Origin: Sphingobacteriaceae bacterium
GTDB taxonomy: Bacteria > Bacteroidota > Bacteroidia > UBA7662
DNA: 64,000 nt
Direction: 5' to 3'
NCBI GenBank assembly: GCA_030682795.1
Contig: JAUXNJ010000026.1
Coordinates: forward strand, 1-64,000
How positions within the stretch are numbered: the first letter of the stretch is position 1; each line of letters opens with the position of its first letter. Under the pieces are notes generated by a model, which ran no database searches, was not told where the DNA came from, and saw only the letters and a program-made list of their open reading frames with translations. Of this stretch, positions 649-19,881 are shown one piece after another. The translations under genes were made by a program, and so were the position numbers.

Positions 649-1200
649 TATTCATCCTTTCGTTTTTTGTCTTCTTAAAAATTAAACCTCACACTTAAAG
701 GGGGCTTATTAATGGTTTGCTCAAAAAAGTCTACCAATGGTTTTGATACTTTTCGGCCTCATTTAGTTTTAAGCTGCCTCATAACTTGCTTGCGGCAGCG
801 CTAAATATACTAACATTTAATCTCAGTCCTTCAACGACCCTGATTTACTAGCGCCCTACAAATTCGGCGTCAACAAGCATGCATTGTGATTTGGCCATAA
901 GAGGTTCTGGCTACCAAAAGTAGTCCGAGGCTAACTAGGAGGTGTTTCATGGTTTTCATTTTCTAAAAGCTTATGGTATGCTACTCAATGACAAATACGC
1001 TTCCTATTTATTTTAAGAACCCTTAGCGTCATACTTACTTGATTAAAATGGGGTCAGTTTAAATTTCCAATACTCGTATACTGCCACTCAAACCCGTAGC
1101 AACACCCTCCCCCAAAGGAACTCAAACCCCGGCCCAAAAAACGGCATTTGCATACTAGTGTAACCGTCCTTTTACCCTCCCAACTGCACATTTCACTGCA
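649..1200. other. Gene-poor stretch beside the tRNA-Arg integration site
   Basis: Apart from the signal-peptide relic at 870-959, no credible gene is seen. The right end carries two copies of a 12-bp-period motif beginning ACTGCACA (1183 and 1195) directly against the 117-bp repeat. A TACTTTTG box on the minus strand lies at 915-922, but it is about 270 bp upstream of the gene at 648 and cannot be assigned with confidence. Confidence 0.5.
870..959 (-). pseudogene. Signal-peptide-only relic of a secreted protein gene
   Basis: From the ATG at 957-959 (or the in-frame ATG at 948-950) the minus strand encodes a clean export signal, MKHLLVSLGLLLVARTSYGQ, followed by six residues and a TGA at 870-872. 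A signal peptide with no mature protein suggests the 5' remnant of a gene whose body was deleted or frameshifted. No continuing frame of any length was found downstream towards 650. It could instead be a chance open frame, so confidence is modest. Confidence 0.35.
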
Positions 1201-1521
1201 CACTACCAAAAACAAAGGGCATTCTCATCGCTGAAAATACCCCTTAACTATATGATTTACAATTATTTGTAGCCCCGAGCAGAATCGAACTGCTATCTAA
1301 AGTTTAGGAAACTTCTAGACGAATGTAAAGTGTTAACTTGTTGATTATTTATATTTTATCTATACAATTTTATCATATTTATGTAGCAATTTGACCATTT
1401 ACTGCCCACTTTACTGCCCACTTTGAGGGTAGTTTTTTTTATAATACGCTCATTATTAATTGCTTAGAATCCCTAAATTTACAAATACCCTGTCGTTTCG
1501 GCGGCATCAAAAGTGTGCAGT
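1183..1521. repeat. Short 12-bp-period repeats around the left core copy (candidate integrase arm sites)
   Basis: A motif of the form ACTGC[A/C]CA repeats with a 12-bp period on both sides of the left tRNA fragment: at 1183 and 1195 on the left, and at 1401 and 1413 (ACTGCCCACTTT twice) on the right. An inverted ACTGCACAC lies at 1513-1521. Tyrosine integrases bind short direct repeats flanking their core site, so arm-core-arm is the natural reading. No integrase gene is in the window, and the assignment is inference from the pattern. Confidence 0.5.
1201..1317. repeat. Left copy of 117-bp direct repeat containing the 3' 48 nt of tRNA-Arg (att-like)
   Basis: Identical at every base to 3206-3322. 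Positions 1270-1317 match the tRNA-Arg(CCU) gene from its 3' end through the anticodon loop and then diverge, so this copy is a truncated tRNA that cannot be functional. Loss of identity inside the anticodon stem is where tyrosine recombinases typically cross over in tRNA genes. The identity also runs 69 bp beyond the tRNA 3' end, longer than most att duplications, and implies a recent event. Confidence 0.8.
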
Positions 1522-1543
1522 AAAGGATGTTGACTATTGGATT

Positions 1544-2866
1544 TTACAAGCCGAGGGTATAGATATTGGATGCTGCATACAAAGGAAGCACCTTGACCTT
1601 GCCATATTCGGCAAAGTTTTCTAAAGATAGCCTTACTCCATATCTCGATTTCTTTTCATCCATAAACAAATACATACTCTGCATCGCTCCTTTTGTGCCC
1701 GCTTTTACTTCTACAGGAAATATACACTCTTGATTTTGAATTACGTAGTCCACTTCAGCTTGACTATTCTTTGCTTCGCGATGCCAGTAATACAATGCAG
1801 TTCTTTCGTAAGCATCATTGGATTTAAGCAACTCTAATCCAACAAACAACTCAGCGATATTTCCCTTATTAATGACTTCAATATCGTCTTTCAACAAAAG
1901 TGAAGCTACATCAAGCCCCAAAATCCTTTGGTAAATTCCAGTGTCAAAAATGAGTAATTTAATTTTCTTAGGATTTGCTTCTGCTCCTAAAGGAATCCCG
2001 TTACTTGAAGAATGCGTTACACGATATACCAAGCCTGCCATTTCTAATAAATCAATCACTTGTTTGATTACTGGGTTAGTCAATGAAGTTAAATCGTTGG
2101 AGTACTTAAACTTAGTCCCAACCTGCTTTACAATACTTTCAAAAACAGATAAAATGTTCGTTGGAGGTATTTGTCTTTTGTATTTCACAAAATCCGCTTG
2201 TATGGCAATAATTAAATCATCTAAAATTCGCTGAACTTCCAATAAATCACCCTTGGCTACATAAGTTTGAACGGCCTGAGGCATTCCCCCGATAATCAAA
2301 AACTTCTTAAAATACACTTTTAGCTTTTCGTGAAATATAGGATTTATTGGTCTCTCGGGATTTGATTGCTGCATCATACTCGCCAAGGGCTTTTCATTCA
2401 AAGCGCCCAAAAATTCAATAAAAGAGAATGGGTACATAAACACAGATCGAACCCTTCCTACTCCAAAGGAAGGAAGTTCCGATAATGCGAATTCTAACAA
2501 AGAACCTGCAGCAATGACATGTAGATTTGGTTTTTTTTCATAAAAATAACGCAGCTTAGAGATTGCAGGTAAACTTGCTTGTATTTCGTCGAGAAAAACC
2601 AAGGTCCTCCCTTCAATTATCTCAGTTTGGGTTATAATTGCTAATTGCTCAACTAAATCATTAATATCTGAGGTATTGGCAAACAAACTTTGGTATTCCG
2701 GTTGCTCCTCAAAATTTATTTCAATAAAATAGTCGAACTGTTTCGACAAATTTCTTACTGCTGTTGATTTTCCAACTTGTCGCGCTCCTCGGATGAGCAA
2801 AGGCTTTCTTGATGACGACCTCTGCCAGGCAAGCAATACATCGTCGATTTTTCTTTGTATATACAT
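1544..2866 (-). CDS. AAA ATPase with C-terminal DUF4143 nuclease-like domain
   Basis: A 440-residue protein of the AAA_14/DUF4143 family, whose cellular role is not established. Walker A is GARQVGKST (27-35) and Walker B TLVFLDEIQ (88-96); a winged-helix-like middle part follows; the C-terminus has EVDYV then FPVEVKAG (371-390), the D...E-x-K pattern of the PD-(D/E)xK fold. Length fits the family. It is the only large gene in the tRNA-Arg cassette. Upstream on the minus strand are a TATTTTTG box (2899-2906), giving a leader of roughly 27 nt, and two 24-bp near-identical repeats (2935-2991). These ATPases are common, variable accessory genes in Bacteroidota and archaea; a defence or element-maintenance role is speculation. 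Confidence 0.9.
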   Translation of the reverse strand: MYIQRKIDDVLLAWQRSSSRKPLLIRGARQVGKSTAVRNLSKQFDYFIEINFEEQPEYQSLFANTSDINDLVEQLAIITQTEIIEGRTLVFLDEIQASLPAISKLRYFYEKKPNLHVIAAGSLLEFALSELPSFGVGRVRSVFMYPFSFIEFLGALNEKPLASMMQQSNPERPINPIFHEKLKVYFKKFLIIGGMPQAVQTYVAKGDLLEVQRILDDLIIAIQADFVKYKRQIPPTNILSVFESIVKQVGTKFKYSNDLTSLTNPVIKQVIDLLEMAGLVYRVTHSSSNGIPLGAEANPKKIKLLIFDTGIYQRILGLDVASLLLKDDIEVINKGNIAELFVGLELLKSNDAYERTALYYWHREAKNSQAEVDYVIQNQECIFPVEVKAGTKGAMQSMYLFMDEKKSRYGVRLSLENFAEYGKVKVLPLYAASNIYTLGL

Positions 2867-2934
2867 TTTTTACTCTACAATTGAATGCAGTGACGTGACA
2901 AAAATAAAAAATCCAAATCAATAAACGGGTAAAA

Positions 2935-2991
2935 TTTACAAAAAACAAGACCAATAAAATTCCTTAATTCACAAAAAACAAGACCAGTAAA
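2935..2991. repeat. Pair of 24-bp direct repeats upstream of the ATPase gene
   Basis: Copies at 2935-2958 and 2968-2991 share CACAAAAAACAAGACCA-like sequence with two mismatches and start 33 bp apart, about three helical turns. They lie 70-125 bp upstream of the ATPase start, on the side where its promoter should be. This could be a regulator-binding site or a leftover of a local duplication. Confidence 0.4.
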
Positions 2992-3110
2992 CCAAAACCA
3001 AAGATTAACCGTGACACATTAGGCAAAAAATCTGCGAAGAGCGGAGATTTTGTAGAATACCTATTGAAGTCGATGAAAAAGCAAAGACGATGACGAAATT
3101 GAACACTTAA

Positions 3111-3239
3111 ATGAGCATTCCGTTTCAAAATGCACCCCCCTCGGGTGAGGTACTCAAAATGCCTGAAAACTCTATTTTAGAACAGTCCGATTTTTTGGGG
3201 GAGGTCACTACCAAAAACAAAGGGCATTCTCATCGCTGA
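3111..3239 (+). CDS. Possible 42-aa small protein crossing the right repeat boundary
   Basis: ATG at 3111, TGA at 3237-3239; contains MPENSILEQSDFLGEV and its last ten codons are encoded by the 117-bp repeat. The composition is not extreme, but there is no recognisable promoter or family. It may be a chance frame or the truncated end of a gene cut by integration. Confidence 0.2.
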   Translation: MSIPFQNAPPSGEVLKMPENSILEQSDFLGEVTTKNKGHSHR

Positions 3240-3322
3240 AAATACCCCTTAACTATATGATTTACAATTATTTGTAGCCCCGAGCAGAATCGAACTGCTA
3301 TCTAAAGTTTAGGAAACTTCTA
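3206..3322. repeat. Right copy of 117-bp direct repeat, overlapping intact tRNA-Arg (att-like)
   Basis: Perfect partner of 1201-1317, offset 2005 bp. Here the tRNA continues to its full 5' end at 3346, so this copy restores a working tRNA-Arg, as expected at the tRNA side of an integrated element. Confidence 0.8.
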
Positions 3323-3346
3323 TTCTATCCGTTGAACTACGGGGCC
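3275..3346 (-). tRNA. tRNA-Arg(CCU)
   Basis: A 72-nt cloverleaf on the minus strand: acceptor GGCCCCG/CGGGGCT with a G-U first pair, D-stem GTTC/GAAT, anticodon stem GAAGT/ACTTT with loop TTCCTAA (anticodon CCT, reads AGG), T-arm AGCAG-TTCGATT-CTGCT, discriminator A, no encoded CCA. It is the intact tRNA at the border of the integrated segment; the truncated copy at 1270-1317 lacks the 5' 24 nt. Confidence 0.93.
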
Positions 3347-3539
3347 AAATGATTTGCAAAATAAGCTAAAAAGCAGGCCATTTTCAAGCACTGCTTTTCA
3401 TTGTATGCAGCTGGGGGCCTTTTCAGCTTCACCATAGCAAACGAACGACTGCGTAGCATTACAACGTCTCCAACAAACGCCCCTCCTCTTTTCTGCTAAG
3501 CACTTGAACTCCAAAGCCAAACATGCTTGTCAAAAAAAA

Positions 3540-3562
3540 TTATTAAGAATTAATCTAAATAA
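3540..3562 (+). promoter_or_regulatory. Palindromic operator upstream of the iron-type operon (Fur-like candidate)
   Basis: A 23-bp AT-rich palindrome, starting TTATTAAGAA and ending TCTAAATAA, with 9 of 11 arm pairs matching. It sits where the -33 element of the 3577-3584 promoter would be, so bound protein would block transcription. The form resembles AT-rich Fur boxes I associate with Bacteroidota iron genes. The regulator is inferred from gene content, not shown. Confidence 0.5.
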
Positions 3563-3576
3563 AGATAAGGGTCGTT

Positions 3577-3584
3577 TATCTTTG
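3577..3584 (+). promoter_or_regulatory. Bacteroidota -7 element TATCTTTG for the DUF4856 operon
   Basis: A perfect TAnnTTTG box 24 nt before the ATG at 3609, placing the transcription start near 3590 with a leader of under 20 nt. No TTTG is found at the usual -33 spacing; that position is taken by the palindrome at 3540-3562. The box also shows that an earlier in-frame ATG at 3504 lies upstream of the transcript. Confidence 0.6.
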
Positions 3585-3608
3585 CCTCCACATTCAAACA
3601 TCTATCAA

Positions 3609-4730
3609 ATGCAAAAACATATTCTCCTGTTCGTTATCGCCGCTTTATCGCTGGTGACTTGTAAAAAAGAAGAGACCCCCAATCCATCCCTCAACATCCC
3701 CAGCAGCTACAACGACAGCAATTTTAGCACTGATGCCGCTGGTTCACTTGCCCTGCGCAGCCAGCTCAATGCCCTGGTAAACGAGGCCAAAAGAGGCCGC
3801 AATACCGCTAATACCGTAGAAGCCGCTACCCTCACTTCCTTGTATACAGCCGCTAGTCCTTCGGTACAAAGTGCCACACTTGCCTATTTCAACGGCCTGC
3901 TCAGTGGTTCCAATGGTTGGTTAGCCGAATTGGCGAAAGCCAGTGGAACTACCTATACCCCTGGCATTCCCACCGGTGAAGGCGGCGTATACGGCGGTTA
4001 TTTATTCGATGAAAACGGTCTCGAAATTGAGCAACTGATCGAAAAAGGACTTTTTGGCGCCATGAACTACTACCAAGCACAGCAGCTTTTACGCACACCA
4101 AATGCGGCCAATCTCAACAAAGCCTTGGCCTTGTATGGTGCGCACCCCAGCTTTCCCAATACGCCAACGGCTTCTAAAGCAGAGCATCCTGATGCGCACA
4201 TGGCCAATTACGCCGCCCGTCGGTCCGATAGCAGCAATGTCAACAGTTTGTACAACCAAATCAAAATCGCCTTCATTACCGCACAGGCGGCCATGGAGCA
4301 GGGCGCCGACTTTAACGCCGAGCGCGACGCAGCCCTGGCCAACATTCGCTTGAATTGGGAGAAGGTGAATGCCGCTACCATCATCAATTATTGTCATAGC
4401 GTTATTGGCACCATGAGCGGCACTGCCCCTACCGATGCCCAAAAAGCCAACGCACTGCATGCCTATGGAGAAGCAGTGGGCTTTATGCATGGATGGCGCA
4501 ATCTGCCGGCTGACAGCAAGCGCATTACCGATACCCAAATCGACGAAGTGCTGGCTTTGTTAAGGGCTGAATCGGGACAAACACCTGTTTCATACGTATT
4601 CATCACCGAACCCGTAGCCAATTTGCCGCGTTTGCAGCAGGTAATTAGTCGCTTGCAACAGATTTACGGCTTCAGCAATGCCGAAGTGGAAGCCTTCCGC
4701 AACAACTGGGTGAACATTCAAAGTCGATAA
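3609..4730 (+). CDS. DUF4856 lipoprotein of an iron-type uptake operon
   Basis: A 373-residue protein with a lipoprotein signal (lipobox LVTC, Cys18), then the Ser/Asn-rich start and long helical body of DUF4856, a Bacteroidota family that accompanies imelysins. The start was set at 3609 rather than the in-frame ATG at 3504, because the signal peptide begins at 3609 and the promoter lies between. It is first of four genes; the next starts 3 bp after its stop. Likely anchored in the outer membrane, exposed to periplasm or surface. Its helical architecture and neighbours suggest a part in iron or iron-chelate capture, which is inference; no binding residues can be assigned. Confidence 0.85.
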   Translation: MQKHILLFVIAALSLVTCKKEETPNPSLNIPSSYNDSNFSTDAAGSLALRSQLNALVNEAKRGRNTANTVEAATLTSLYTAASPSVQSATLAYFNGLLSGSNGWLAELAKASGTTYTPGIPTGEGGVYGGYLFDENGLEIEQLIEKGLFGAMNYYQAQQLLRTPNAANLNKALALYGAHPSFPNTPTASKAEHPDAHMANYAARRSDSSNVNSLYNQIKIAFITAQAAMEQGADFNAERDAALANIRLNWEKVNAATIINYCHSVIGTMSGTAPTDAQKANALHAYGEAVGFMHGWRNLPADSKRITDTQIDEVLALLRAESGQTPVSYVFITEPVANLPRLQQVISRLQQIYGFSNAEVEAFRNNWVNIQSR

Positions 4731-4733
4731 GCC

Positions 4734-5804
4734 GTGCAGCGACTGCTTCTACTGAGTTTGCTGCTGGTGGCGCTGGTGGGCTGCAAGGACGAGCCATCGG
4801 GCCCCTCTGGTCAGGGCTTCGACCGTGGACAAATGCTGGCCTATTACGCCGATAACCACATCCAACCGGCCTACGACAGCCTGTCGCTGGCCGCACAAGA
4901 ACTCCATAGCAGGTTGCTAGGTCTCGCCACGCAGCCTCAGTCGGGTGAGCTGACTGAGCTGCGCGCGGCCTGGCTAAGCCTCTACTTGCGCTGGCAGTCG
5001 GCCTCGATTTATAACGTTGGTCCTGCCGCCGAGCAAGGTCTGCGCAAGCGCCTGGCCGAGGAACTCGGCACTTTCCCTGTGTCAGAAGCCAAAATTGAGC
5101 AGTACCTCAGCGCCGGCGACACCAGTTTTGCCAATTTCGACCGCGACAGTCGGGGTTTGTTTGCCATCGAATACCTACTTTACAAAGGCACTAGTACCGA
5201 AGTGCTAGCGCGCCTCGCCCAAACGCCTGTTCGCAATTACTTAATGGCCCTCTCCAACCGCTTCAAAAGCGAAAGCCAACGGGTAGCCAATGAATGGCGC
5301 CCCTACCGTGCCGAATTTGTAGGCAGCACTGGCACCAGCGCCGGCAGCTCCACTGTGCAACTGTACAACGAGTTCCTGTTATCGTTCGAAGGCCTCAAAA
5401 ACTTTAAACTCGGCTTGCCTTTGGGCTTGCGCATGGGACAAAATCAGGCCGAGCCGCAAAAGGTGGAGGCCTTGTACAGCGGCGCCAGCTTGGCAGGCAT
5501 CGCTCGGCAATGGCAAGCCCTCGAAGCCTTTTGGCGCGGCAACGGCAGCACCGGCTTCAAAGCCTACCTCCTAGCCAGCGCTGGCGGTAACGAACTCGTA
5601 AACCGCACCGAGCAGCAGTTGCTTGTGATCAACGCACGGCTTGCAGCTTGCGGCACAGGGCGCCTCGACAGTCTGATCACCACCAACCCCCAGCCCGCCA
5701 TCGAGCTCCATACCGAGTTGCAGCGCAACACCCGCTTCTTTAAGAGCGATTTATCGTCGCTCCTCGGCCTCACCATCACTTACTCGAGCGGCGACGGCGA
5801 CTGA
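4734..5804 (+). CDS. Imelysin family lipoprotein (M75-like)
   Basis: A 356-residue protein opening with GTG, a lipoprotein signal (LVGC, Cys17) and two helical imelysin repeats. Imelysins are iron-associated periplasmic or surface proteins once classed as M75 peptidases; a peptidase activity is not supported structurally. The family GxHxxE site appears here as GLFAIE (141-146), so the histidine is replaced by Phe while Glu is kept; some imelysin-like proteins lack this His and may bind another ligand. The stop TGA shares its A with the ATG of the next gene, pointing to translational coupling. GC content is high, like the rest of the operon. Confidence 0.88.
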   Translation: MQRLLLLSLLLVALVGCKDEPSGPSGQGFDRGQMLAYYADNHIQPAYDSLSLAAQELHSRLLGLATQPQSGELTELRAAWLSLYLRWQSASIYNVGPAAEQGLRKRLAEELGTFPVSEAKIEQYLSAGDTSFANFDRDSRGLFAIEYLLYKGTSTEVLARLAQTPVRNYLMALSNRFKSESQRVANEWRPYRAEFVGSTGTSAGSSTVQLYNEFLLSFEGLKNFKLGLPLGLRMGQNQAEPQKVEALYSGASLAGIARQWQALEAFWRGNGSTGFKAYLLASAGGNELVNRTEQQLLVINARLAACGTGRLDSLITTNPQPAIELHTELQRNTRFFKSDLSSLLGLTITYSSGDGD

Positions 5805-7132
5805 TGAACCCCCTCCGCCAGGCATACCGTTCCTTGTGGCAACCCGCCTCTCCAGCCCCGCTTACGACCCTCCGCATCGTAACGGGGCTGGTGATGTTGG
5901 TCGGTAGCCTGCGCTTTTGGTCGCTCGGCTGGATCGAAACCAACCTACTCGCCGCCCAACTGCAGTTTAAATACGCCGGTTTCGAGTGGGTGCAAATGCC
6001 CGAACCCGCCTGGCTGCTGTATGCTGTTTTTGGCGCCATGGTGCTGGCTTCGCTGGGCGTGATGCTCGGCTACCGCTACCGCCTTTCGGCCTGGTTGCTG
6101 TGGGGAAGCTTCACCTATGTGGAGCTGCTCGACCTCACTTGGTACCTCAACCACTACTATTTCATCAGTCTGCTGCTGCTCCTACTCGCCCTGCTCCCCG
6201 CCCACCGGCATCTGAGTTTAGATGTGCGCCTCGGCAGGGTACAGCCCTTCAGCTCCTTGCCCGGCTGGATGGTGGCCCTGCCCCGCTGGCAGATGGGCAT
6301 TTTGTACGTTTATGCGGGAATGGCCAAAATTCAGTCCGACTGGCTGCTCGAAGCCATGCCCATGCGGTTGTGGTTGCCGGCGCACAGCTCGGAGCCGCTT
6401 CTGGGACCGCTTTTCGCTTGGACCTACACCCCCTGGTTGTTCAGCTGGGCGGGCATGCTGTACGATTGTACGATTCCCTTTTGGCTCAGCTGGCGCAAAT
6501 CACGCCCTTGGGCTTACCTCACCGTGATTGTTTTTCACGGATTAACCGGCTGGCTTTTCCAAATCGGCATGTTTCCCGTGGTGATGATTGCCATCACCTT
6601 GGTGTTTTTCGACGCCAACACCCACCTCCACTGGCAAAAACGCTTTTTTGGAAGCTGGGCGGCAGTGCAGGGAGCTGCTTTTCGCGTTGCCCGGCCTTGG
6701 GTGCTGCTCACCGGCTTGTACCTGGCCTTTCAGTTGCTGTTTCCTTGGAGATTTGTACTGTACCCAGGTGATTTCTTTTGGACCGAAGCTGGCTACCGTT
6801 TTGGTTGGCGGGTAATGTTGATGGAGAAGGCGGGAACAGCCACTTTTTACGTAACCCGAGCCGATAATGAGCGAGAAGGACTGGTGGACAATGCCGAATT
6901 CCTCCTTCCCCACCAAGAAAAGCAGATGGCTATGCAGCCCGATTTGATCGTGCAATATGCCCACTGGCTAAAACAGCATTACGAAAAACAAGGCGTTCCC
7001 GTGGCCAAAGTACGGGCCGAGGTGTACGTGACCCTGCAAGGAAAGCCCAGCAGCCTCTATTTCGATCCGCAACTCAATTTGCTCGAACTTAATCCTCGTA
7101 CCTATCCCCATTGGCTATATCCCGCCCCATGA
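5804..7132 (+). CDS. HTTM domain membrane protein (vitamin K carboxylase-like)
   Basis: A 442-residue polytopic inner-membrane protein. Hydrophobic helices are visible at about 25-40, 65-85, 90-110, 115-135, 160-175, 200-225, 235-265 and 295-315, followed by a soluble C-terminal part with LLPHQEKQMAMQP near 365-377. The family, HTTM (horizontally transferred transmembrane), is homologous to vitamin K-dependent gamma-glutamyl carboxylase, but bacterial substrates are mostly unknown. It is wedged between imelysin and the TonB receptor with overlaps at both ends (1 nt before, 4 nt after), so it is part of the same uptake unit. A role in modifying or passing on the imported ligand is speculation. 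Confidence 0.85.
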   Translation: MNPLRQAYRSLWQPASPAPLTTLRIVTGLVMLVGSLRFWSLGWIETNLLAAQLQFKYAGFEWVQMPEPAWLLYAVFGAMVLASLGVMLGYRYRLSAWLLWGSFTYVELLDLTWYLNHYYFISLLLLLLALLPAHRHLSLDVRLGRVQPFSSLPGWMVALPRWQMGILYVYAGMAKIQSDWLLEAMPMRLWLPAHSSEPLLGPLFAWTYTPWLFSWAGMLYDCTIPFWLSWRKSRPWAYLTVIVFHGLTGWLFQIGMFPVVMIAITLVFFDANTHLHWQKRFFGSWAAVQGAAFRVARPWVLLTGLYLAFQLLFPWRFVLYPGDFFWTEAGYRFGWRVMLMEKAGTATFYVTRADNEREGLVDNAEFLLPHQEKQMAMQPDLIVQYAHWLKQHYEKQGVPVAKVRAEVYVTLQGKPSSLYFDPQLNLLELNPRTYPHWLYPAP

Positions 7133-9528
7133 AAAAAGCACTGTTGATTGTTTTGTGCTGGCTGCTGCTGCTGCCCCTGGCGCAGGCCCAGTCGTTGCAA
7201 GGCCAAGTGCTGCTACCCAACGGCGCGCCAGCCATTGCCGCTACGGTGGTGCTGCGGGGCCAATCCGAAAAACAAACCACTTCCGATGCCAATGGTCGGT
7301 TTGCTTTTAAAGATGCTGCTCCTGGCATATTGCTGGTGTTTGTGCCCGGGCACCGATTGTGGCAGCAGCGGCTCGATGTGCTCCCTGGCCAGCCTTTGCA
7401 AATCCAACTCACCGCCATCCAGCAAAATTTAAACGAGGTGCAAGTGCGCGACAGCCTGCCTCCCGCCCAAGCCATCCGCCAAATGCGCGCCGTGGAGGGC
7501 TTTGGCATTTATGCTGCCCGCAAAACCGAGGTAGTGGCCGTGCAGGAAATCACCGCCAACCTGGCCACCAACAACGCCCGGCAAGTGCTCGGACGGGTGG
7601 CTGGCTTGAACATTTGGGAATCGGATGGGGCAGGACTGCAGCTGGGCATTGGGGGAAGGGGTTTGAGTCCGAACCGCACCAGCAACTTCAACACCCGGCA
7701 AGAGGGCTACGACATGGCCGCCGATGCCCTCGGTTACCCCGAGAGTTATTACACCCCGCCGGTGGAAGCCCTCGACCGCATCGAAATTGTACGGGGCGCG
7801 GCCTCGCTCCAATACGGCACCCAGTTTGGGGGAATGGTGAATTTTAGGATGCAGCAAGCGCCCGACAGCGGCTTGCTGATCCGCACCCGCCTGAGCACCG
7901 GCAGCTTCGGCTTCCGAAATCTATTTGCCAGCGCCGGCTGGCGGCATGGGCGCAACGATGGATTTGCCTTTGTGCAGCACAAACAAGGCGATGGCTGGCG
8001 GCCCAACAGTGGCTTCGATGCCCAAACGGCCTATTTGCAAACCGGCTGGAAGCGTCGCAGCGGCAAATCCTACCAAAAAATAGCCTACACCCACATGCGC
8101 TACTTGGCGCAACAGCCGGGCGGACTCACCGATACCCAGTTTGAGCAAGACCCCCGGCAGTCGAACCGTCCCCGCAACTGGTTTGCCATCGACTGGAACC
8201 TCTTTGCTCACGAATGGGAGCTCGAGCTGGGGCCCCGTACCCGCTACAATGCCCGAACCTTCGGTCTGTACGCCAGTCGCGCCGCCCTCGGCAACCTCGA
8301 GCGCATCAATGTAGCCGATGCCGTGGTGGGCAACCGCACCCTCATCGATGGCAACTACAGGAACATCGGCCACGAAAGCCGGTTGCTGCACCGCATCGGA
8401 CTGAGCCAGTTGCTCCTCGGTCTCCGCCTCTACCAAGGCATCACCACCGCCCGGCAAGGCGACGCCAGCACCGGTGCCGATGCCGACTTTCGGCTGCTCA
8501 ACCCCAGCTACCCCGAGGGCAGCGACTACCGTTTTCCCAACCAAAACGCCGCCCTATTTGGCGAATACCTCTGGCAAGTGCTGCCGCAATTCAAAATTAC
8601 GGCCGGACTCCGAGCCGAATACATTCGCACCCAGGCCCAAGGCTACTACCGCCAGCGTGTGTTCGATTTTGCGGGCAATGTGGTGGTCGACAACCGCATC
8701 GACGAAGCCACCGATCGTTCCCGTAGCTTCATCATCGGCGCCCTAGGTGCCAGCTACCAGCTTGGCGAAAACAGCGAAATCTACGCCAACCTCGCCCAAA
8801 ACTACCGTGCCATCAACTTCAGCGATTTGCGCGTGGTGAACCCCAACTTCCGCATCGACCCCAATTTGCAAGACGAGCGGGGCTATACCGCCGACTTCGG
8901 TTACCGCGGCAAGCCGCTCAAATGGCTGCGGATAGATGGCAGCGCCTTCTTGCTTTACTACAACAACAAAATAGGCCAAATTCTGCGTGCCGACCAGCCG
9001 CCCCTTTTTCTCGATTACCGCCTGCGCACCAATGTGGCCGCGGCCCGCAGTGTAGGACTCGAAGCCCTGCTCGAAGCCGACCTTTGGAAGGGCCAAGCCG
9101 GCCACCAGTGGCAAACCTACCTCAATATGGCCTTCACCCAGGCCCGCTACCTGCGCAGCAACGAACCCGGCATCAGCGGCAAGCAAGTGGAGCTGGTGCC
9201 GCCGGTTATTTTGCGCAGTGGCTTACAATACCGCTACAAAAACTGGCGCTCGGCCCTGCAATACAGCTGGGTGGCCGCCCATTTCAGCGACGCCACCAAT
9301 GCCCGCCGCACCTCCACCGCGGTCGAAGGCCTCATCCCCGCCTATGCCGTGGCCGATTTCAGCTGCTCCTACGCCCACCGCGCTTGGCGTTTCGAAGCCA
9401 GCGTCAACAACCTCTTCAATGCCATGTATTTCACCCGTCGCGCCGATGGCTACCCTGGACCGGGCATCATTCCCTCCGACGGCCGAAGCTTCTTTTTGAC
9501 CCTGCAGTACCAATTCCGGAAATTGTGA
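7129..9528 (+). CDS. TonB-dependent outer-membrane receptor, FecA-like
   Basis: A 799-residue receptor. The signal peptide (cut after LAQAQ) is followed by a carboxypeptidase-like regulatory domain (about 22-105), a plug with RVAGLNIWESDG, IGGRGLSPNR and IEIVRGAASLQYGTQFGG, and a 22-strand barrel ending FFLTLQYQFRKL with a terminal aromatic-type strand. ATG at 7129 was chosen over the in-frame ATG at 7111 because the signal peptide starts there and it overlaps the previous stop as ATGA. Plug features match ferric-citrate and siderophore receptors. As last gene of the operon it provides the energised outer-membrane step. Substrate is unproven. Confidence 0.93.
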   Translation: MKKALLIVLCWLLLLPLAQAQSLQGQVLLPNGAPAIAATVVLRGQSEKQTTSDANGRFAFKDAAPGILLVFVPGHRLWQQRLDVLPGQPLQIQLTAIQQNLNEVQVRDSLPPAQAIRQMRAVEGFGIYAARKTEVVAVQEITANLATNNARQVLGRVAGLNIWESDGAGLQLGIGGRGLSPNRTSNFNTRQEGYDMAADALGYPESYYTPPVEALDRIEIVRGAASLQYGTQFGGMVNFRMQQAPDSGLLIRTRLSTGSFGFRNLFASAGWRHGRNDGFAFVQHKQGDGWRPNSGFDAQTAYLQTGWKRRSGKSYQKIAYTHMRYLAQQPGGLTDTQFEQDPRQSNRPRNWFAIDWNLFAHEWELELGPRTRYNARTFGLYASRAALGNLERINVADAVVGNRTLIDGNYRNIGHESRLLHRIGLSQLLLGLRLYQGITTARQGDASTGADADFRLLNPSYPEGSDYRFPNQNAALFGEYLWQVLPQFKITAGLRAEYIRTQAQGYYRQRVFDFAGNVVVDNRIDEATDRSRSFIIGALGASYQLGENSEIYANLAQNYRAINFSDLRVVNPNFRIDPNLQDERGYTADFGYRGKPLKWLRIDGSAFLLYYNNKIGQILRADQPPLFLDYRLRTNVAAARSVGLEALLEADLWKGQAGHQWQTYLNMAFTQARYLRSNEPGISGKQVELVPPVILRSGLQYRYKNWRSALQYSWVAAHFSDATNARRTSTAVEGLIPAYAVADFSCSYAHRAWRFEASVNNLFNAMYFTRRADGYPGPGIIPSDGRSFFLTLQYQFRKL

Positions 9529-11850: not shown

Positions 11851-13122
11851 ATGCGCGATACTATTATTTTCGACCTGATTGAACAGGAAAAAGCCCGTCA
11901 ACAGCACGGCATCGAACTCATTGCTTCAGAAAATTTTGTGAGTCCACAAGTCATGGAAGCCGCCGGCTCTGTGCTCACCAATAAATATGCAGAAGGCCTC
12001 CCTGGCAAGCGCTATTATGGCGGATGTGAGGTGGTTGACCAAATCGAACAACTGGCCATTGACCGTGCCAAGCAGCTTTTTGGTGCTGAATGGGCCAATG
12101 TGCAGCCCCATTCGGGTGCCCAAGCCAATGCCGCGGTGATGCTGGCGGTGCTCAATCCCGGCGATCGCATCCTGGGCTTCGACCTCAGTCATGGCGGTCA
12201 CCTCACCCACGGCTCACCCGTAAACTTCAGCGGCAAACTCTACGAGCCGCATTTTTATGGGGTAGAAAAAGAAACGGGCTTGATCGATTTCGCCAAAGTG
12301 GTCGAAAAAGCGCGGGAAGTAAAACCCAAGCTCATCATTTGTGGAGCCTCGGCTTATAGTCGCGATTGGGACTACGCCACCTTGCGTGCCGTAGCCGACG
12401 AAGTAGGCGCCCTCTTGCTCGCCGATATTTCGCATCCATCGGGCCTCATTGCTACCGGATTTCTCAACAATCCCGTGCCGCATTGTCACATCATCACCAC
12501 CACCACTCACAAAACCTTGCGCGGTCCACGTGGCGGTTTGATTTTGATGGGCAAAGATTTCCCGAATCCTTTCGGCCAAAAAACGCCTAAGGGAGAAATT
12601 AAGATGATGTCGAATTTGCTCGACATGGCCGTGTTTCCAGGCACCCAAGGCGGCCCTTTGGAGCACATCATTGCTGCCAAAGCCATTGCTTTTGGAGAAG
12701 CTTTGAGTCCTGCCTACAAAGCCTACTGCGGCCAAGTGGTTAAAAACGCCCAAGCCATGGCCAAGGCCTTTACCGACCGCGGCTACAACATCATCAGCGG
12801 CGGCACCAACAACCATTTGATGCTCATCGACCTGCGCAATAAAAACGTAAACGGCAAGCAAGCCGAAAACGCCCTTGTAAAAGCCGACATCACCGTCAAC
12901 AAAAACATGGTGCCTTTCGACGATAAGTCGCCCTTCACCACAAGCGGTTTCCGCGTAGGCACCGCCGCCATCACCACCCGCGGCATGCGCGAAGAGCATA
13001 TGGAAACCATTGTGGCACTCATCGACCGGGTGTTGAGCAATTTTGAAGACGAAACTACGCTCGCTGCCGTCCGCAAAGAAGTGAATGCGCTGATGGCTGG
13101 ATTTCCTCTTTACCAATCTTAA
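11851..13122 (+). CDS. glyA: Serine hydroxymethyltransferase
   Basis: Converts serine and tetrahydrofolate to glycine and methylene-THF; cytosolic, PLP-dependent. The 423-residue sequence carries [10 protein letters not shown] (22-31), [15 protein letters not shown] (44-58), and the PLP-lysine motif [13 protein letters not shown] with Lys221. Length is typical. The ATG at 11851 was chosen: the longer frame to 11800 passes through the promoter at 11817-11846 and lacks homology. The promoter position suggests a leaderless mRNA. Monocistronic; followed by a dispersed intergenic repeat. Confidence 0.97.
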
Positions 13123-13129
13123 ACCCCGG

Positions 13130-13266
13130 TCCCTGAGTTCATCGAAGGGCACTTCGTTCGCTTTTCAGACCGTTCGCTCCGCTCTCTGTTCAGACATCAG
13201 ACCGGTCGCGTTGCTCCGTTTTCAGATAGACTTGGCCCTAGCGTGGATGATTTCTGATTTATGAAA
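13130..13266 (+). repeat. Dispersed intergenic repeat, copy 1
   Basis: Contains CAGACCGTTCGCTCCGCTC and CAGACCGGTCGC-type units, CAGATAGACTTGGCCCTAGCG and an AT-rich tail GATTTCTGATTTATGAA. Related to 17601-17768 (same orientation) and, inverted, to 54262-54395. It lies between convergent genes glyA and the CHU_C protein. No coding potential. Confidence 0.7.
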
Positions 13267-13375
13267 CCATTGAAATGTGTCAACCTATTTCAGGCAAGGA
13301 CACCTTTTGAACCCCGCCTTGCGGGATTTCGCTTCGCTCAACATTCAACTTTGAATTTTGAACAACGTGCTGCGC

Positions 13376-15697
13376 CTACCGCAGCACGTTAACCACTCCC
13401 TTCTCCACCCTTGGATTCCGCCCCTCGGGCGTATAGCGGATGATGAAAGGATAGCTGCCATTCGGCAGGTCCTGCCCTTGGAAAGTGCCATCCCAGCCTC
13501 GGTTGAGGTTATTGCTGGTGAAGATTTGTCGACCCCAGCGGTCATAGACTTCCATTTGGAAGCTGCTGAGTGGACAACGGGTTTTGATGATTAGCTCATC
13601 GTTTAAACCATCGCCATTGGGCGAGAAGGCTGTAGGCAAGTATAAATGACATTCGCAATCGGCCAAACCCAGGTAAAACGCATCTGTGGCTGTGCCGCAG
13701 GGGTTACTTACTTCAACATTGTACCAACCGCTGTCGGTGAGGATGCGGATGCGCTCGCTACTGCCGTCGGTCCACTGGTAGCTCCCCTGCCACACTTCGG
13801 GCAGCTCGATGCGGTAAAACTGCCCTTCGCAGCGGCTTGTATCGTTGAGACTGAACTCTGGCGCTTGCTGGTAATCGACCCGCACTTCATGCACAAAAGT
13901 GCCACAGGCGTTGGTCATGAGCAAGGCAAAGGTGCCCGCCTCGGTAACTGTGAGCGGCTGGGTGCTGCCATCTTGCCATTGCCAAGTGTAATCGCCGGGC
14001 TGGGGTGTTAGGGTGAAGCTGATGCCCTCGCAAATATTGGTATCGGCAACCAGACCGCTTTGCGGCGGCTCGTGCAGCGTGATGTAAAAGCTGTCGCGGG
14101 TGCTGAAGCAGGCATTGCTGAGCTCGGCCCACTGCCAGCCGCCCGTGTTAAAGCTGGTGCTCCAGAGGCTGTCGTCGTTGCTCCAGCGGATGCTAAGCAC
14201 CGAATCGGACGCCAAAGCAACGGGCAAGCTGCTGCCCGCGCACAAAACCGTATCGGGGAGATTGGGTGATTCAGGATAGCCCCAAACGCGGATGGTTTTG
14301 GTAAGGGTATCTAATTTATTGCAATAATCGGCGATAGCAGTAATGGTGTAGATACCCGGCTGACTATAAAAATGCACGGGAGCAAACACTGTATCGGTAT
14401 TGTTGGGCGAGCTAGGGTCGCCAAAATCCCAGCGCACACTGTTTAAATTGTCGTAATCATAGAGCCGCATGCGCGCCGTATCGCCCAAGCATACATCGTT
14501 GGCTACTACTGAAAAGCGGCCGGGGTAGAAGTAGCGCATGGGGAAGCGGGGCATATGTTGTAGAAATGCCTGGGGTGGCAAAGATGCAGGTAAAAAAACA
14601 ACAGTGTCCTGAAATCCAATTAATGGATAGGTAAGATCAGGTTCGTTTATTCGTGAAAAGTTTAGCCTGAATGGCGCCGCATTTGTGATTCCGTAAATAT
14701 AAATTTTGCCGTCAACAGCCAAAGTCAAACTTGCAAATAGAGATACCGGATTTAAAATGTGTTGAGATGAAGAACGAATGGCCGTTGAATCCCAGATAGT
14801 GACATCATACTGAAAAATAGGGGTACTAGGCATCCATACATAAAGCTTTGTTCCGTTTGGAGAAAAGCAAAAATAAGGGTTGGAAAGTTGTTGTAATCCA
14901 TTCAATATCATTGGCAGAATTACCAAAGAATCTAACATCCCAGTGGCAGGGTTAAATTTTAAAAACTCGATTTGACTATTTCTCAAATTACAAGTAACCA
15001 ATTTTGTTCCATCTGGACTAGCATATATACGTTCATTATTGGCTTGATTGTGATTACAACGGGCATCTGTGAACGTACTGTGGGGCGTGAGGTTCGCTGA
15101 AGTGTCAATTAAATACACATGGTAAGTATTTATCACCCTGTTCACAAAAATAAGCCATTTATCGAAGCCGTTTGAATGAGGAACAACAGTAAACCCTCCT
15201 GTAATTGGGTCTGGTAATGCAGTCCTTGTAGTAACCATATATTCATTATTTGTTTGCGATTTTTCAATTTTTGTGCAAAAAAGTGTGGCAAGAGAAGTGC
15301 CACCACTAAGTGTGCCCGCACTGTCAGCAAACATTAAATATAGATCTTCGTTCAATGAAATTTTTTCAATTGCTGCAGGCTTGCTATTACTTCCAATACT
15401 CAAGTTTCCATTAAGCAATCTACTTCCAGCACTGTCAATCAAGGACCTACTTAGAGCAGAATCAGATTCGAAAAAAAGAATTTTTCCATCACAACTGTTT
15501 ACTACAGGTAAAGGGTTTTGCTGTATCCCTAAAAACCCAGTTTTTACATTTTTAGGTAAGGCGGAATATTGAAGCATACCATTAGCATCAAACCTAAAGG
15601 TACCAACGTTAGTGACCCAATTAGCTGCCTCCCCCTGCCCAAACAAGCAGGCAGGAAGAAGCATTAACACATAAAATAGCCAGAAACGCTTTTTCAT
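13376..15697 (-). CDS. Secreted protein with PKD domain and type B (CHU_C) T9SS sorting domain
   Basis: A 773-residue protein: signal peptide ending LFGQG, a beta-propeller-like region of about 370 residues with DGKILFF and PDGTKLV-type repeats, a PKD domain (VRWDFGDPSSPNNTDT), Ig-like segments with paired cysteines, and the CHU_C ending LYLPTAFSPNGDGLND ... NGSYPFIIRY. The CHU_C domain directs export by T9SS and surface attachment. Its ATG overlaps the stop of the upstream gene by 1 nt (TAATG), so both are one operon. Base composition shifts near 14575: AT-rich for the N-terminal half, GC-rich for the PKD-to-sorting half, suggesting a mosaic gene. Ligand unknown. Confidence 0.9.
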   Translation of the reverse strand: MKKRFWLFYVLMLLPACLFGQGEAANWVTNVGTFRFDANGMLQYSALPKNVKTGFLGIQQNPLPVVNSCDGKILFFESDSALSRSLIDSAGSRLLNGNLSIGSNSKPAAIEKISLNEDLYLMFADSAGTLSGGTSLATLFCTKIEKSQTNNEYMVTTRTALPDPITGGFTVVPHSNGFDKWLIFVNRVINTYHVYLIDTSANLTPHSTFTDARCNHNQANNERIYASPDGTKLVTCNLRNSQIEFLKFNPATGMLDSLVILPMILNGLQQLSNPYFCFSPNGTKLYVWMPSTPIFQYDVTIWDSTAIRSSSQHILNPVSLFASLTLAVDGKIYIYGITNAAPFRLNFSRINEPDLTYPLIGFQDTVVFLPASLPPQAFLQHMPRFPMRYFYPGRFSVVANDVCLGDTARMRLYDYDNLNSVRWDFGDPSSPNNTDTVFAPVHFYSQPGIYTITAIADYCNKLDTLTKTIRVWGYPESPNLPDTVLCAGSSLPVALASDSVLSIRWSNDDSLWSTSFNTGGWQWAELSNACFSTRDSFYITLHEPPQSGLVADTNICEGISFTLTPQPGDYTWQWQDGSTQPLTVTEAGTFALLMTNACGTFVHEVRVDYQQAPEFSLNDTSRCEGQFYRIELPEVWQGSYQWTDGSSERIRILTDSGWYNVEVSNPCGTATDAFYLGLADCECHLYLPTAFSPNGDGLNDELIIKTRCPLSSFQMEVYDRWGRQIFTSNNLNRGWDGTFQGQDLPNGSYPFIIRYTPEGRNPRVEKGVVNVLR

Positions 15698-17526
15698 TAT
15701 CTCGCAATCACTATGCGCTTGTATGCTGGCGCAGCGTTTTGGTAATGAACACTAAGGGTGTAAACACCATTGGGCAAATGATTCAAATCTAATTGGGAGG
15801 TGGATGTTGTAGCTTTCATGTCATTAGAAAGCAAGATTTCTCCACGTGCTCCTACAAGTTGGATATTGGCAATTCCATAAGGGGCTTTTATTTCAAAAAG
15901 GCCCTCGCTCGGATTTGGATAAACACTTAGCTCTTTTACAGATTGATTTACCATTTCGGCCTCCACATTTGGCCTTGAGGTTCTAACTGCAGCTGTTGAG
16001 TTTTGAAACGACCGTTTATAAAAAATCCTGCCGCTGTTAGGTCCAACAAATGCATAATAACTCCAATCGAGAGTGCCATCCATGCTGAGCAGCGTTTGGG
16101 GTTCAGGCGTAGTTAATCCATCACCAACTACAAAATAATCATTGGTAGTGGGCGCAGGAATTACAAAATGATATAAAGTGTTATTAAAAGGAGGTGTGGC
16201 GCCAAGTTGGCTATTACCATCAGAAGTAAGTATTAGGCGTCTCGAAAGCACTTCTTCGAGACCAATACTTCGAATAGGAACACTTAGGTTCGTCCAGTTC
16301 CAGCCTGTATAAGTAATAAAATCACCTGCCATGGCAATCACAGGGCCGGAGTTGAAATCACCAAATGAATTGTGTGCAGCTGACATCAATTGAGTAGTTG
16401 GCCCAGGAGAAACAATTGAAGTCACAAAGTTGCTCATCACATCAGATATCCACTCATGGGTAGCCCAAGCAGGTTGGCTATAGGTTTGAGCGAAAACTAT
16501 ATTCGCAAAAGGATTTGGCGGTTGTGGAACAGGAAAATACGTATCTGATAAATCCATCCATTGACTACTCCCCACGTAACTGTCAGTACCATCATACATC
16601 TCATAAACCACCCCACAAGCATGTGGATTTTGAAACGTCCAATAGGAATTAAAGTAGGTATTCATATCGATGCGCGGCTTAGCCACCCGTGTTGGAGCAA
16701 AGCCAGGAAAAACACTCGCATGCTGCACAATATGAGAAGCACAATTATTTGCAAAACCTGACTGTACAATGGTAAACGACTCGAATACCACTACAATATC
16801 ACCCGCTGCTGTTCCTTGGTCAACCATTACAAAATTCACATAATTATTGCCCCCAAAAGAACGAATGGCTACATCGGGCTCGGCAGCTCTGTTATGGCCA
16901 CAAGCACCATCGTTTACCCAATAAGTATTACCTGAAGGCGTTAAACTCCCAAAATCAACGGTCATGGCTTCAATGTCGCTCCCGTTTTTCCACACCACCA
17001 CCGCATTGCCGTCAATATCTGCATCCACATTTGGGTGGGTTGCACCTGCACTAAACAAATAAAATCCAGAACCTGCGTAACTCGTTACTGGAACCGGCGA
17101 ACCACCGTTCCAATCCCACATCTCCGACCACACCCCGCTTGGACCCAAGTCTGATTCGTATACTACCAAAGCCAAACCAGTACCACTATAATCCCAAACA
17201 ACATCAGGATCTTCTACCCTTCCACCAATGGCAGCGGCTTGCAAGAGAAAACACACTTCGGTTGGTGGGGAGGTAGTGTGATCGATAAATACGATACTTG
17301 GGTCAGAGCCATCCACTACAACCACCTGCAAATCGCCAAAGGCAGAGGTCCCTGTATTGGCTACCGAACTTGAAGTGCACGAAGCAAACTCATCGGGCGT
17401 TGTAGGATTGATGAACTGAGCCATGGCAGGAAAGCTAAAAAGTGATAAAACTGCTAACGAGCGGGCAAATACCCCCCCCCAACTTGTGTTTAGGCTGTTT
17501 TTAAACAGCGATGGAGAATTTTTCAT
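15697..17526 (-). CDS. Secreted protein with type A T9SS sorting domain
   Basis: A 609-residue protein: N-terminal signal peptide (hydrophobic SLAVLSLFSFPAMA), a long beta-rich body with no family I recognise (motifs VEDPDVVWDYSG, HPNVDADIDGNAVVVW, which look like propeller blades), and a C-terminal sorting domain starting SVYPNPSEGLFEI and ending YKRIVIAR. Upstream gene of a two-gene T9SS operon with the CHU_C protein. A run of nine G residues on the coding strand (17472-17480, codons 16-18) falls just before the hydrophobic core, so slippage there would switch the protein off. AT-rich relative to neighbours. Function unknown beyond surface or secreted location. Confidence 0.88.
   Translation of the reverse strand: MKNSPSLFKNSLNTSWGGVFARSLAVLSLFSFPAMAQFINPTTPDEFASCTSSSVANTGTSAFGDLQVVVVDGSDPSIVFIDHTTSPPTEVCFLLQAAAIGGRVEDPDVVWDYSGTGLALVVYESDLGPSGVWSEMWDWNGGSPVPVTSYAGSGFYLFSAGATHPNVDADIDGNAVVVWKNGSDIEAMTVDFGSLTPSGNTYWVNDGACGHNRAAEPDVAIRSFGGNNYVNFVMVDQGTAAGDIVVVFESFTIVQSGFANNCASHIVQHASVFPGFAPTRVAKPRIDMNTYFNSYWTFQNPHACGVVYEMYDGTDSYVGSSQWMDLSDTYFPVPQPPNPFANIVFAQTYSQPAWATHEWISDVMSNFVTSIVSPGPTTQLMSAAHNSFGDFNSGPVIAMAGDFITYTGWNWTNLSVPIRSIGLEEVLSRRLILTSDGNSQLGATPPFNNTLYHFVIPAPTTNDYFVVGDGLTTPEPQTLLSMDGTLDWSYYAFVGPNSGRIFYKRSFQNSTAAVRTSRPNVEAEMVNQSVKELSVYPNPSEGLFEIKAPYGIANIQLVGARGEILLSNDMKATTSTSQLDLNHLPNGVYTLSVHYQNAAPAYKRIVIAR
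17472..17480 (-). repeat. G9 homopolymer in the 5' coding region of a T9SS protein
   Basis: Nine consecutive C on the plus strand, G on the coding strand, at codons 16-18. Such tracts are prone to slipped-strand mutation and are a known substrate of phase variation. At nine bases the frame is open. Confidence 0.8.
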
Positions 17527-17600
17527 ACGATCAAGATTTTAATATGGATAAATTTAATTGTTGTTTTTGGTATGTCCAAATTAATTTGACATTAAAAAGA

Positions 17601-17768
17601 TCGCCCTTCGACAGGGCTCAGGTACCATCGATGCGCTCGCTTTACAGACCGGTCGCTGCGCTCTCTTTTCGGACATCAGACCGGTCGCTGCGCTCCCTTT
17701 TCAGATAGATTGGGCCATGGCGTTGTATGATTTCTGATTTATGAATTTGATTTCTGATTTCTGATTTG
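17601..17768 (+). repeat. Dispersed intergenic repeat, copy 2
   Basis: Holds two tandem CAGACCGGTCGCTGCGCTC units (within 17640-17705), CAGATAGATTGGGCC, then several GATTTCTGATTT units. Matches copy 1 at 13130 in order and orientation. The block lies between divergent genes. Confidence 0.75.
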
Positions 17769-17913
17769 GTACCATGGGTCATTCCCTGAATAGCATTGAC
17801 CGTTTGATTTTGAACCTCAAACGCGTTCACCCCCCGAATCCACGTGTTCAACCTCAAAAAATATAAGCTGACAAAAATCTAACAAATGTCCGGCACTTTC
17901 TGATCCCCGTCCC

Positions 17914-17997
17914 CGTTTAGGATGTATGTAAACGAGAGACGCTCGGTTCATACAACAGGTTTTAGTTAAAGCCCTCTTCGCGGAGGGCTTTTTTTTT
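17914..17997 (+). ncRNA. Candidate small structured RNA with intrinsic terminator
   Basis: CGTTTA (17914-17919) can pair with TAAACG (17929-17934). The loop between them holds TGTATG (17923-17928), which can pair with CATACA (17949-17954), giving either two exclusive hairpins or an H-type pseudoknot. A further CGAG/CTCG hairpin sits inside. A strong terminator follows (17968-17997). It lies about 200 nt upstream of the T9SS gene at 18205, on the same strand, so it could be a free small RNA or a leader attenuator. It fits no RNA family I can name, and no promoter is clear. Confidence 0.35.
17968..17997 (+). terminator. Intrinsic terminator
   Basis: AAAGCCCTC-TTCGCG-GAGGGCTTT hairpin followed by a run of T on the plus strand. 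No plus-strand protein gene ends here, so it must serve a non-coding or leader transcript. Confidence 0.75.
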
Positions 17998-18204
17998 GAG
18001 CTCACTGTCAACAGCCCTAGCATTCCTGTATGGCTGTTCAAAAAAAAGAACAGCTGCCCCAAAAAAGCTCACAAAAACACAAAATCCCCATCTAACATAA
18101 CACATTGCGCCGCTAATTTTACATCATGCGTCAAATGATATCTATCACCCGGTTTTGGCACAGCCTTTGAAAATGGTAGGGAAATCTAAATAAAACCCAA
18201 AACC

Positions 18205-19755
18205 ATGATCAAAAATTTCTTTGTTGTCCTCAGCCTCTGCGCTACCACCGCAACTGTCAACGCCCAAAACCCAACCCCCCTCTTCCAACACACCCCCAAG
18301 CATCCGCTCCTGCAGCAAATCAAACCCATCCTCCAAAGCCAGCTGCAAAATAATGTACAACTTCGGGCCATCGATGCTCGTCCCGACTCGGTGCATTATT
18401 CAAGCTGGGACACCCTCACCAATGCTTGGCAAATTGAAGAAGTAAATGCCCTTAGCTATGATGCCAATTCCCGCATCACCCGCGTAGTCAATTACAGCGG
18501 TCCAGGCATTGGCAGCTTCCCCATCAGCGATATGCGCTACAGCTATACCCCAGCCGGTAAGCTCGCCAGCTATTCATTCAATTTGTTGTTAGGAGGACAA
18601 GTGCAAGAGCAAATGCGCCTCGAATTCAACTACGATGCCAATGGCCGCAAAGCCTCTGGGGTATTTTCTGTGGTTGACCCCCTTACCAACAGCTTGATGC
18701 CGCTCTTTGGCGACTCCATTGCCTATGTGCGCAACCAAAACAACGAGGTCATTGAAGCTACCCACTATCTGTATGACAACCTTTTTGCAGGCCTCGGCTG
18801 GGTGCCTATTCAGCGCGTAACTGATGTTCAATCCGCCCCAAATGGCAGTCCAAAAGCCTATCTGCATTGGAGCTGGGATGATCAAATGCAAGACTGGAGT
18901 TTGCCAACCCGCATGCAAGATGTGGTTTGGGGATTTGGCTGGAAAGGCTGGGAAACTGCTTTTGGCACCATCCAATTAGACGAAACCTTCAATGTGTATG
19001 AGCCTTCAGACTTTAGTTACACCGAGCCAACCGACTACCTTTCGTACCTCTACATTCAAAACCAATGGGAACCCAGCACTTTGGCAAAATCAGCGAGCAA
19101 TTCAGCTGGAGAAATTTTGAGCATTCAAACCATGCGCTTCGATGCCCTTACGCGAGTATGGGAAGACATGAACTTGAGCACATTTGGCTATGCCAATGGC
19201 GAAATGGAAGATATGACTACCTTTTATTTTGATTTCTTGACCATGAATTACGAGCCAATTTCAAGACTTCAATACCGCTTTGACAACCAATTTGGCTTCA
19301 TGAATGCGCGTAGAGAAAGCTGGTATGACGGCACAACCTGGATACCCACCCTTCAAAATCGCTTTGCCTACCAGCACAACAATGATGGCAAGCCTACCCT
19401 TTGCATCGGCACTGAAGCTGTTGGAGCTGGAGCTCCTTTCGTGAATGTTTTTAAAAAGGATTTCTTCTACAAAACGCCAGTTGCAGCTTCTGTAAAACCC
19501 AATACTTATGATCGCATTGCCATGCGCATCTACCCCAATCCTGCTCAAAACGAATTGCACATCCAAACCGCTGAAGCCGATGTGCAGCGCATCTTGATTC
19601 GCAATATGCAAGGACAAGTGGTAAAGCAGCAAAGCGTAAACCAGGAGCATGCCGAAGTACTGGTGATGAACATTTCAGAGTTAGCGGCCGGCATCTATGT
19701 GGTGGAAGCCATTGGCCGCAACAACAAGGGTGTAGAACGCCTGATTAAGCACTAA
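18205..19755 (+). CDS. Secreted protein with type A T9SS sorting domain
   Basis: A 516-residue protein: signal peptide ending TVNAQ, a body of repeated tyrosine-rich units such as ALSYDANSRITRVVNY, LEFNYDANGRKASG and RYSYTPAGKLASY that resemble YD/RHS-like beta hairpins, and a sorting domain RIYPNPAQNELHIQ ... AAGIYVVEAIG. The tail directs T9SS export and surface attachment. The gene stands alone with a strong terminator at 19780. The repeat body may form a beta solenoid or propeller; ligand unknown. Confidence 0.88.
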   Translation: MIKNFFVVLSLCATTATVNAQNPTPLFQHTPKHPLLQQIKPILQSQLQNNVQLRAIDARPDSVHYSSWDTLTNAWQIEEVNALSYDANSRITRVVNYSGPGIGSFPISDMRYSYTPAGKLASYSFNLLLGGQVQEQMRLEFNYDANGRKASGVFSVVDPLTNSLMPLFGDSIAYVRNQNNEVIEATHYLYDNLFAGLGWVPIQRVTDVQSAPNGSPKAYLHWSWDDQMQDWSLPTRMQDVVWGFGWKGWETAFGTIQLDETFNVYEPSDFSYTEPTDYLSYLYIQNQWEPSTLAKSASNSAGEILSIQTMRFDALTRVWEDMNLSTFGYANGEMEDMTTFYFDFLTMNYEPISRLQYRFDNQFGFMNARRESWYDGTTWIPTLQNRFAYQHNNDGKPTLCIGTEAVGAGAPFVNVFKKDFFYKTPVAASVKPNTYDRIAMRIYPNPAQNELHIQTAEADVQRILIRNMQGQVVKQQSVNQEHAEVLVMNISELAAGIYVVEAIGRNNKGVERLIKH

Positions 19756-19779
19756 ACAACCAACCCAACCTATGACAAA

Positions 19780-19810
19780 GGCCGTCTCTAGTACAGAGGC
19801 GGCCTTTTTG
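19780..19810 (+). terminator. Intrinsic terminator after the 18205 gene
   Basis: GGCCGTCTC (19780-19788) pairs with GAGGCGGCC (19796-19804, one G-T pair), followed by TTTTTGT. It begins 25 nt after the stop codon. Confidence 0.85.
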
Positions 19811-19881
19811 TATTGAGGATGCGTAAAGAAGACGGCATGACCATTTCCAAGCTGTAGCAAGCTTGGTCTAAATCCTGGCTT

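Follow-up and report, generated by a model that had tools for sequence, protein, structure and literature searches.

Results

The window analysed here is a stretch of 64,000 nucleotides, the first 64,000 bases of the 91,260-base contig C33 of a Sphingobacteriaceae bacterium genome (G000), a MAG-like assembly of 3.14 Mb in 47 contigs. Close to its left end lies a tRNA-Arg(CCU) gene of 73 nt on the minus strand (3274–3346), recognised by ARAGORN as tRNA-Arg(CCT) and by Rfam as RF00005 (62.9 bits). A direct repeat of 117 bp (1201–1317 and 3206–3322), 100% identical between copies spaced 2005 bp apart, was predicted for this region and is confirmed. The right copy runs into the intact gene, while the left copy, by comparison of the repeat with the tRNA, holds only the 3′ 49 nt of tRNA-Arg(CCU) (1269–1317, minus strand). 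Thus, an intact tRNA gene is accompanied downstream, in the same orientation, by a displaced 3′ fragment, as is found at genomic islands integrated in tRNA genes. The original prediction had recognised both the gene and the fragment, but the ends it gave to them differ from those found here; it had also placed the divergence of the copies inside the anticodon stem, whereas they part between positions 24 and 25 of the tRNA, where the D-stem meets the anticodon stem, and the whole anticodon stem-loop is common to both. A genome-wide search of G000 returned no third copy of the repeat, so that the genome seems to have a single tRNA-Arg(CCU) gene; at C26:96510, a 20-bp match sits in an unrelated coding-like stretch and was set aside.

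Arm-type sites flank the core at the left junction only. On the P′ side, the arm pair ACTGCACATTTCACTGCACA occupies 1183–1202 (plus strand), and on the P side a repeat search and a genome pattern search locate two exact 12-mers, TTTACTGCCCAC, at 1398–1421 (plus strand); an inverted arm site, CTTTACTGCACACTTT, was found by inverted repeat search at 1510–1525 (minus strand). The motifs with a 12-bp period on both sides of the left copy, and the single inverted one, are therefore as first described. In the whole 3.14-Mb genome, the pattern ACTGCMCA-N4-ACTGCMCA has just two occurrences, those at 1183 and 1401, where about 0.007 are expected from base composition; the reversed control gives 0. Between the left arm pair and the core, a flank common to all arm-bearing copies (1203–1268, plus strand) carries a hairpin (stem about 1215–1228/1233–1246) that is terminator-like on the minus strand; repeat comparison and folding identify a second copy of this flank, with the arms missing, beside the intact tRNA (3208–3273, plus strand). 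On the tRNA strand, a stem of 12–15 bp is followed by a U-rich run, with −16 to −20 kcal/mol in all four copies of the arm family that were folded. The island would thus supply the terminator of the tRNA.

Homology between the two repeat copies ends at 3207. From there leftwards, on the minus strand, the sequence (TGACCTCCCCCAAAAAATCGGACTG...) is the end of an IS3-family element, with the tip of its inverted repeat (TGACCTCCC...) at 3206–3207. Near-identical ends precede an OrfA gene (PF01527, 1.1e-23) at C34 and C41; at C11, a related end comes after the C-terminus of OrfB (PF13683, 1.3e-5, just under the cut-off). By comparison with these ends, a terminal remnant of about 50 bp (3160–3207, minus strand) is all that is left of the element, its outer tip coinciding with the edge of the repeat. 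The 'CA' at 3206–3207 is the tip of the IS3-family inverted repeat and matches 1201–1202 by chance, so that the stretch truly shared is 1203–1317, about 115 bp, plus 2 bp of chance match. We had considered 3160–3207, which has several copies in the genome, as part of an island end, and rejected this once it proved to be an IS3-family terminus. The IS boundary is the main correction to the earlier reading, in which the outer edge of the repeat was not recognised as such a boundary: the tRNA-side copy lacks arms because the IS3-family terminus cuts it off at 3207. We infer an IS insertion followed by an adjacent deletion.

The unit between the repeat copies (1318–3205), hereafter island A, is AT-rich (36.1% G+C, against a reference value of 49.4%), its left end being formed by the P-side arm pair. 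It has a single clear gene, coding on the minus strand (1544–2866) for an AAA_14/DUF4143 ATPase of 440 aa (Pfam PF13173, 6.3e-26; PF13635, 4.5e-27), with no match in G001 or G002, two genomes of the same genus. Upstream of this gene (2933–2991), a 26-bp sequence is present twice, 92% alike and 33 bp apart.

On the other side of the tRNA gene, genes for a DUF4856 protein, an imelysin (PF09375), an HTTM/VKGC protein and a TonB receptor (3504–9528) precede a DUF5916 gene; in G002 the DUF5916 gene directly follows the tRNA, without the four-gene block, and the first gene of the block (DUF4856) has a 78% identical stretch on another contig of G001. Further along, a segment of about 6.7 kb (13122–19882), in which there are ORFs of 773, 609 and 516 aa, lies between flanking genes whose orthologues in contig C16 of G002 are only about 70 bp apart.

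We compared the locus with G001, with G002, a sister-species MAG, and with two further members of the family, G005 and G007. On the 5′ side of the tRNA, 9608–35379 is colinear with C16 of G002, mostly at 87–99% protein identity, which places the two at the same chromosomal locus. On the other side of the G002 tRNA there are at least 18 kb at 38.6% G+C, compared with 52.1% for the G002 chromosome. G002 has three homologous modules, each in the order conserved block, ACTGCACA arms, hairpin and tRNA 3′ core, and the P′-side arm pair is kept in all three. At C16 the conserved block R is followed by ACTGCACACTTTACTGCACG, the hairpin and the intact tRNA-Arg; in the C19 and C24 modules, these arms and this hairpin run into tRNA fragments that have decayed. 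In the window, block R (1000–1114, plus strand) is 67–75% identical to the blocks at C16, C19 and C24. In G002 the hairpin and arms, together with block R at C16, are found on that side of the tRNA where the island lies, and so represent the right end of an island family. Since the same three elements stand left of the tRNA fragment in the window, the DNA there is the right end of another island (island B) and not native flank.

That a single small island (1318–3205) lies between its own attL and attR, the left arms being ordinary chromosomal flank, is therefore improbable. It would account for the one fragment found in the assembly, the body of the left island being out of view; yet the arms, hairpin and block R have homologues in the island end beside the G002 tRNA, and are absent from the tRNA loci of G001, G005 and G007, where tRNA-Arg has an unrelated flank (in G001, an unrelated hairpin occupies the same place). 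An empty site with the same two flanks was not found among the genomes compared. In the GTDB genome collection, the exact arm pattern was found at the three G002 loci and in 11 matches without an adjoining tRNA core.

The modules also bear on the idea that the repeat is not site-specific at all, an IS-driven duplication, a homologous exchange or an assembly chimera having put the tRNA end beside unrelated DNA. An IS3-family tip does border one copy, other such IS copies lie at contig ends, and the assembly is MAG-like, in 47 contigs. However, all junctions, those of the independent G002 modules included, break within a few nucleotides of tRNA position 24/25, and arms of one consensus stand on both sides of the core, so that we regard this origin as very improbable, and an assembly chimera in particular as unlikely. 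The modules of G000 and G002 are 81–88% identical to each other, whereas the two copies in the window are 100% identical, which indicates recent accretion or gene conversion.

Not all modules are at the tRNA today. The decayed module at C24 of G002 (L030 1–1062) abuts a chromosomal segment colinear with C26:86284–89745 of G000 rather than with the tRNA locus, which points to a rearrangement in G002 or to relocation there. In the G002 blocks R (L030 786–852; L029; L028), the left part resembles the right terminus of an IS3-family element and is possibly an old IS footprint at the island end. The C16 island (L029 3709–11308) codes for a DUF2779 protein and a GmrSD-like protein, both possibly defence functions.

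The tRNA-Arg genes of G000 and G002 differ at 10 of 73 positions (48–52 and 60–64). These are exactly the ten bases of the T-stem, and all five pairs are kept. G001, G005 and G007 share yet another T-stem, ATGGG/CCCGT, and the decayed fragment at C24 of G002 carries the G000-type 3′ strand, CTGCT. Among class-wide matches, T-stems of the same genus differ by at most two of the five pairs, as read from the match list; the stem AGCAG/CTGCT is also found, without these arms, in other families. The simplest reading, to judge from these sequences, is that the integrating islands brought in a different tRNA 3′ half, and the 3′ half of the gene in the window is probably island-supplied. Ordinary drift with compensation is an alternative that we do not place first.

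No integrase gene was found within 1318–3205, and the absence of one from the window, noted from the start, extends to plausible candidates genome-wide. A PF00589 search of the whole G000 genome gave four matches, two of them Xer-sized. The recombinase at C35 (375-aa frame) is unlikely to be the missing enzyme, as it has SAM_4/SAM_1 domains without Arm-DNA-bind and no tRNA was found nearby. The 400-aa integrase at C1 (L004) was set aside, since this 5.2-kb contig, with a tRNA-like end, has 60% G+C and is probably foreign to the assembly. G002 has only two recombinases matching PF00589, both Xer-sized. Neither assembly, therefore, yielded a plausible island integrase, and we class the locus as an island remnant, not an intact island.

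In IMG/VR, three contigs place a phage integrase gene near an intact tRNA-Arg(CCU), and a fourth has a fragment only; the integrase genes indicate that the site is used by tyrosine integrases. In a tRNA context, the arm motifs had no exact counterpart in IMG/VR, and searches of viral, phage and plasmid sequences returned tRNA matches or chance only. None of the collections searched yielded an element that combines these arms with an integrase. A class-wide control found no integrase relative close to 38 tRNA-Arg(CCU) loci, although this is a weak test, with five phmmer queries and some loci overlapping in the same genome.

Could the 2-kb unit still be mobile, with an integrase of a phage or related island acting in trans to recombine the left junction, attP-like as it is, with the tRNA site, which is arm-free and attB-like, so that a circle is released? 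The left core with intact arms on each side, the identical cores, the open cargo gene and the integrase genes beside tRNA-Arg(CCU) in viral contigs all fit this possibility. However, the IS has deprived the tRNA-side copy of its arms, and neither a matching integrase in G000 nor an exact arm match beside a tRNA in IMG/VR was found; we consider mobility of the unit quite improbable.

Discussion

The locus probably arose when two related islands accreted in tandem at tRNA-Arg(CCU); in neither can an integrase now be recognised. Beside the intact G002 tRNA, the arms, the hairpin and block R form the end of an AT-rich island, which supports the original prediction that the left copy, attP-like in appearance, is a junction of two stacked islands: it would join the right end of island B, by way of the core, to the left end of island A, and stacking would have created its attP-like structure. 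The body of island B is out of view because the contig ends at window position 1.

The likely course of events is as follows. Each island of the family would have carried an attP in which the core, equal to the 3′ 49 nt of the tRNA, stood between the P arms and a P′ side that held the hairpin/terminator and the arm pair of 12-bp period, and a tyrosine integrase would have recombined this core with the tRNA gene. We propose that each such recombination supplied a new tRNA 3′ half and, with it, a new terminator. Island B may have inserted first, and island A then into the rebuilt tRNA, so that 1183–1525 would be a composite junction, attP-like, of B right end, core and A left end. Later, an IS3-family element presumably landed beside the arms at the tRNA-proximal end of island A, and an adjacent deletion would have left only the IS tip. 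The structure would now be inert unless an integrase arrives in trans. The order of events, the class of integrase, the IS-mediated deletion and the inertness are all deduced from the present arrangement.

Accretion at a tRNA gene is a known process, of which this locus offers a clear, if ordinary, example. Islander has mapped genomic islands in tRNA genes, and tandem arrays are known (PMC4383910). Like the Islander islands, the locus has an intact tRNA and a displaced 3′ fragment in the right orientation, with an attP of the anticodon-region type; Islander, however, requires an integrase gene for each island, and there is none here (PMC4383910). The Bacteroidota proviruses at tRNA-Arg(CCU) in IMG/VR (L111, L113 and L115) share the target tRNA and have a phage integrase gene close by, but their flanks are unrelated and they have none of the arms or cargo of the window. 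We rejected an integron-like cassette array (by the test of IntI plus attC), because the repeats consist of tRNA fragments with arms, and there is no integrase close by.

That elements decay to integrase-less CIMEs and then accrete (CIME-IME/ICE) has been described (PMC5704250, after Pavlovic 2004 and Bellanger 2011). As in that account, an integrase-less element here appears to lie between att sites and to be stacked on a related element, and, with no plausible integrase in either genome, the islands look like CIME-like remnants. The ATPase gene is all that is clear in island A, and genes for integration and transfer, if presumed to have been present earlier, have been lost; in G002, the island has a DnaB-like helicase, and no transfer gene was identified in the part examined. 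Cores are kept on both sides, and the right end of a related island, its body off the contig, adjoins on the left. Unlike a CIME, the window has a tRNA-side att site without arms, these having been lost to the IS. The likeness rests on structure, and descent from an ICE or IME is only putative here.

A broader proposal is that an integrase-less island family of uncultured Bacteroidota is mobilised in trans with alternative, pair-compensated T-stems, so that with every integration the only tRNA-Arg(CCU) of the host exchanges its 3′ half and its terminator; we hold this to be speculative and rather unlikely. Our literature search found no precedents in Bacteroidetes and none for T-arm replacement.

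In any event, an island family with its own arms, its own terminator-like hairpin and tRNA-Arg(CCU) as target is present in two sister species of uncultured Bacteroidota and did not turn up in the collections searched. The locus shows what a stacked junction looks like after an IS has trimmed one of its att sites. Moreover, the full T-stem swap between sister species would be a compact instance in which mobile elements rewrite a tRNA gene present in one copy.
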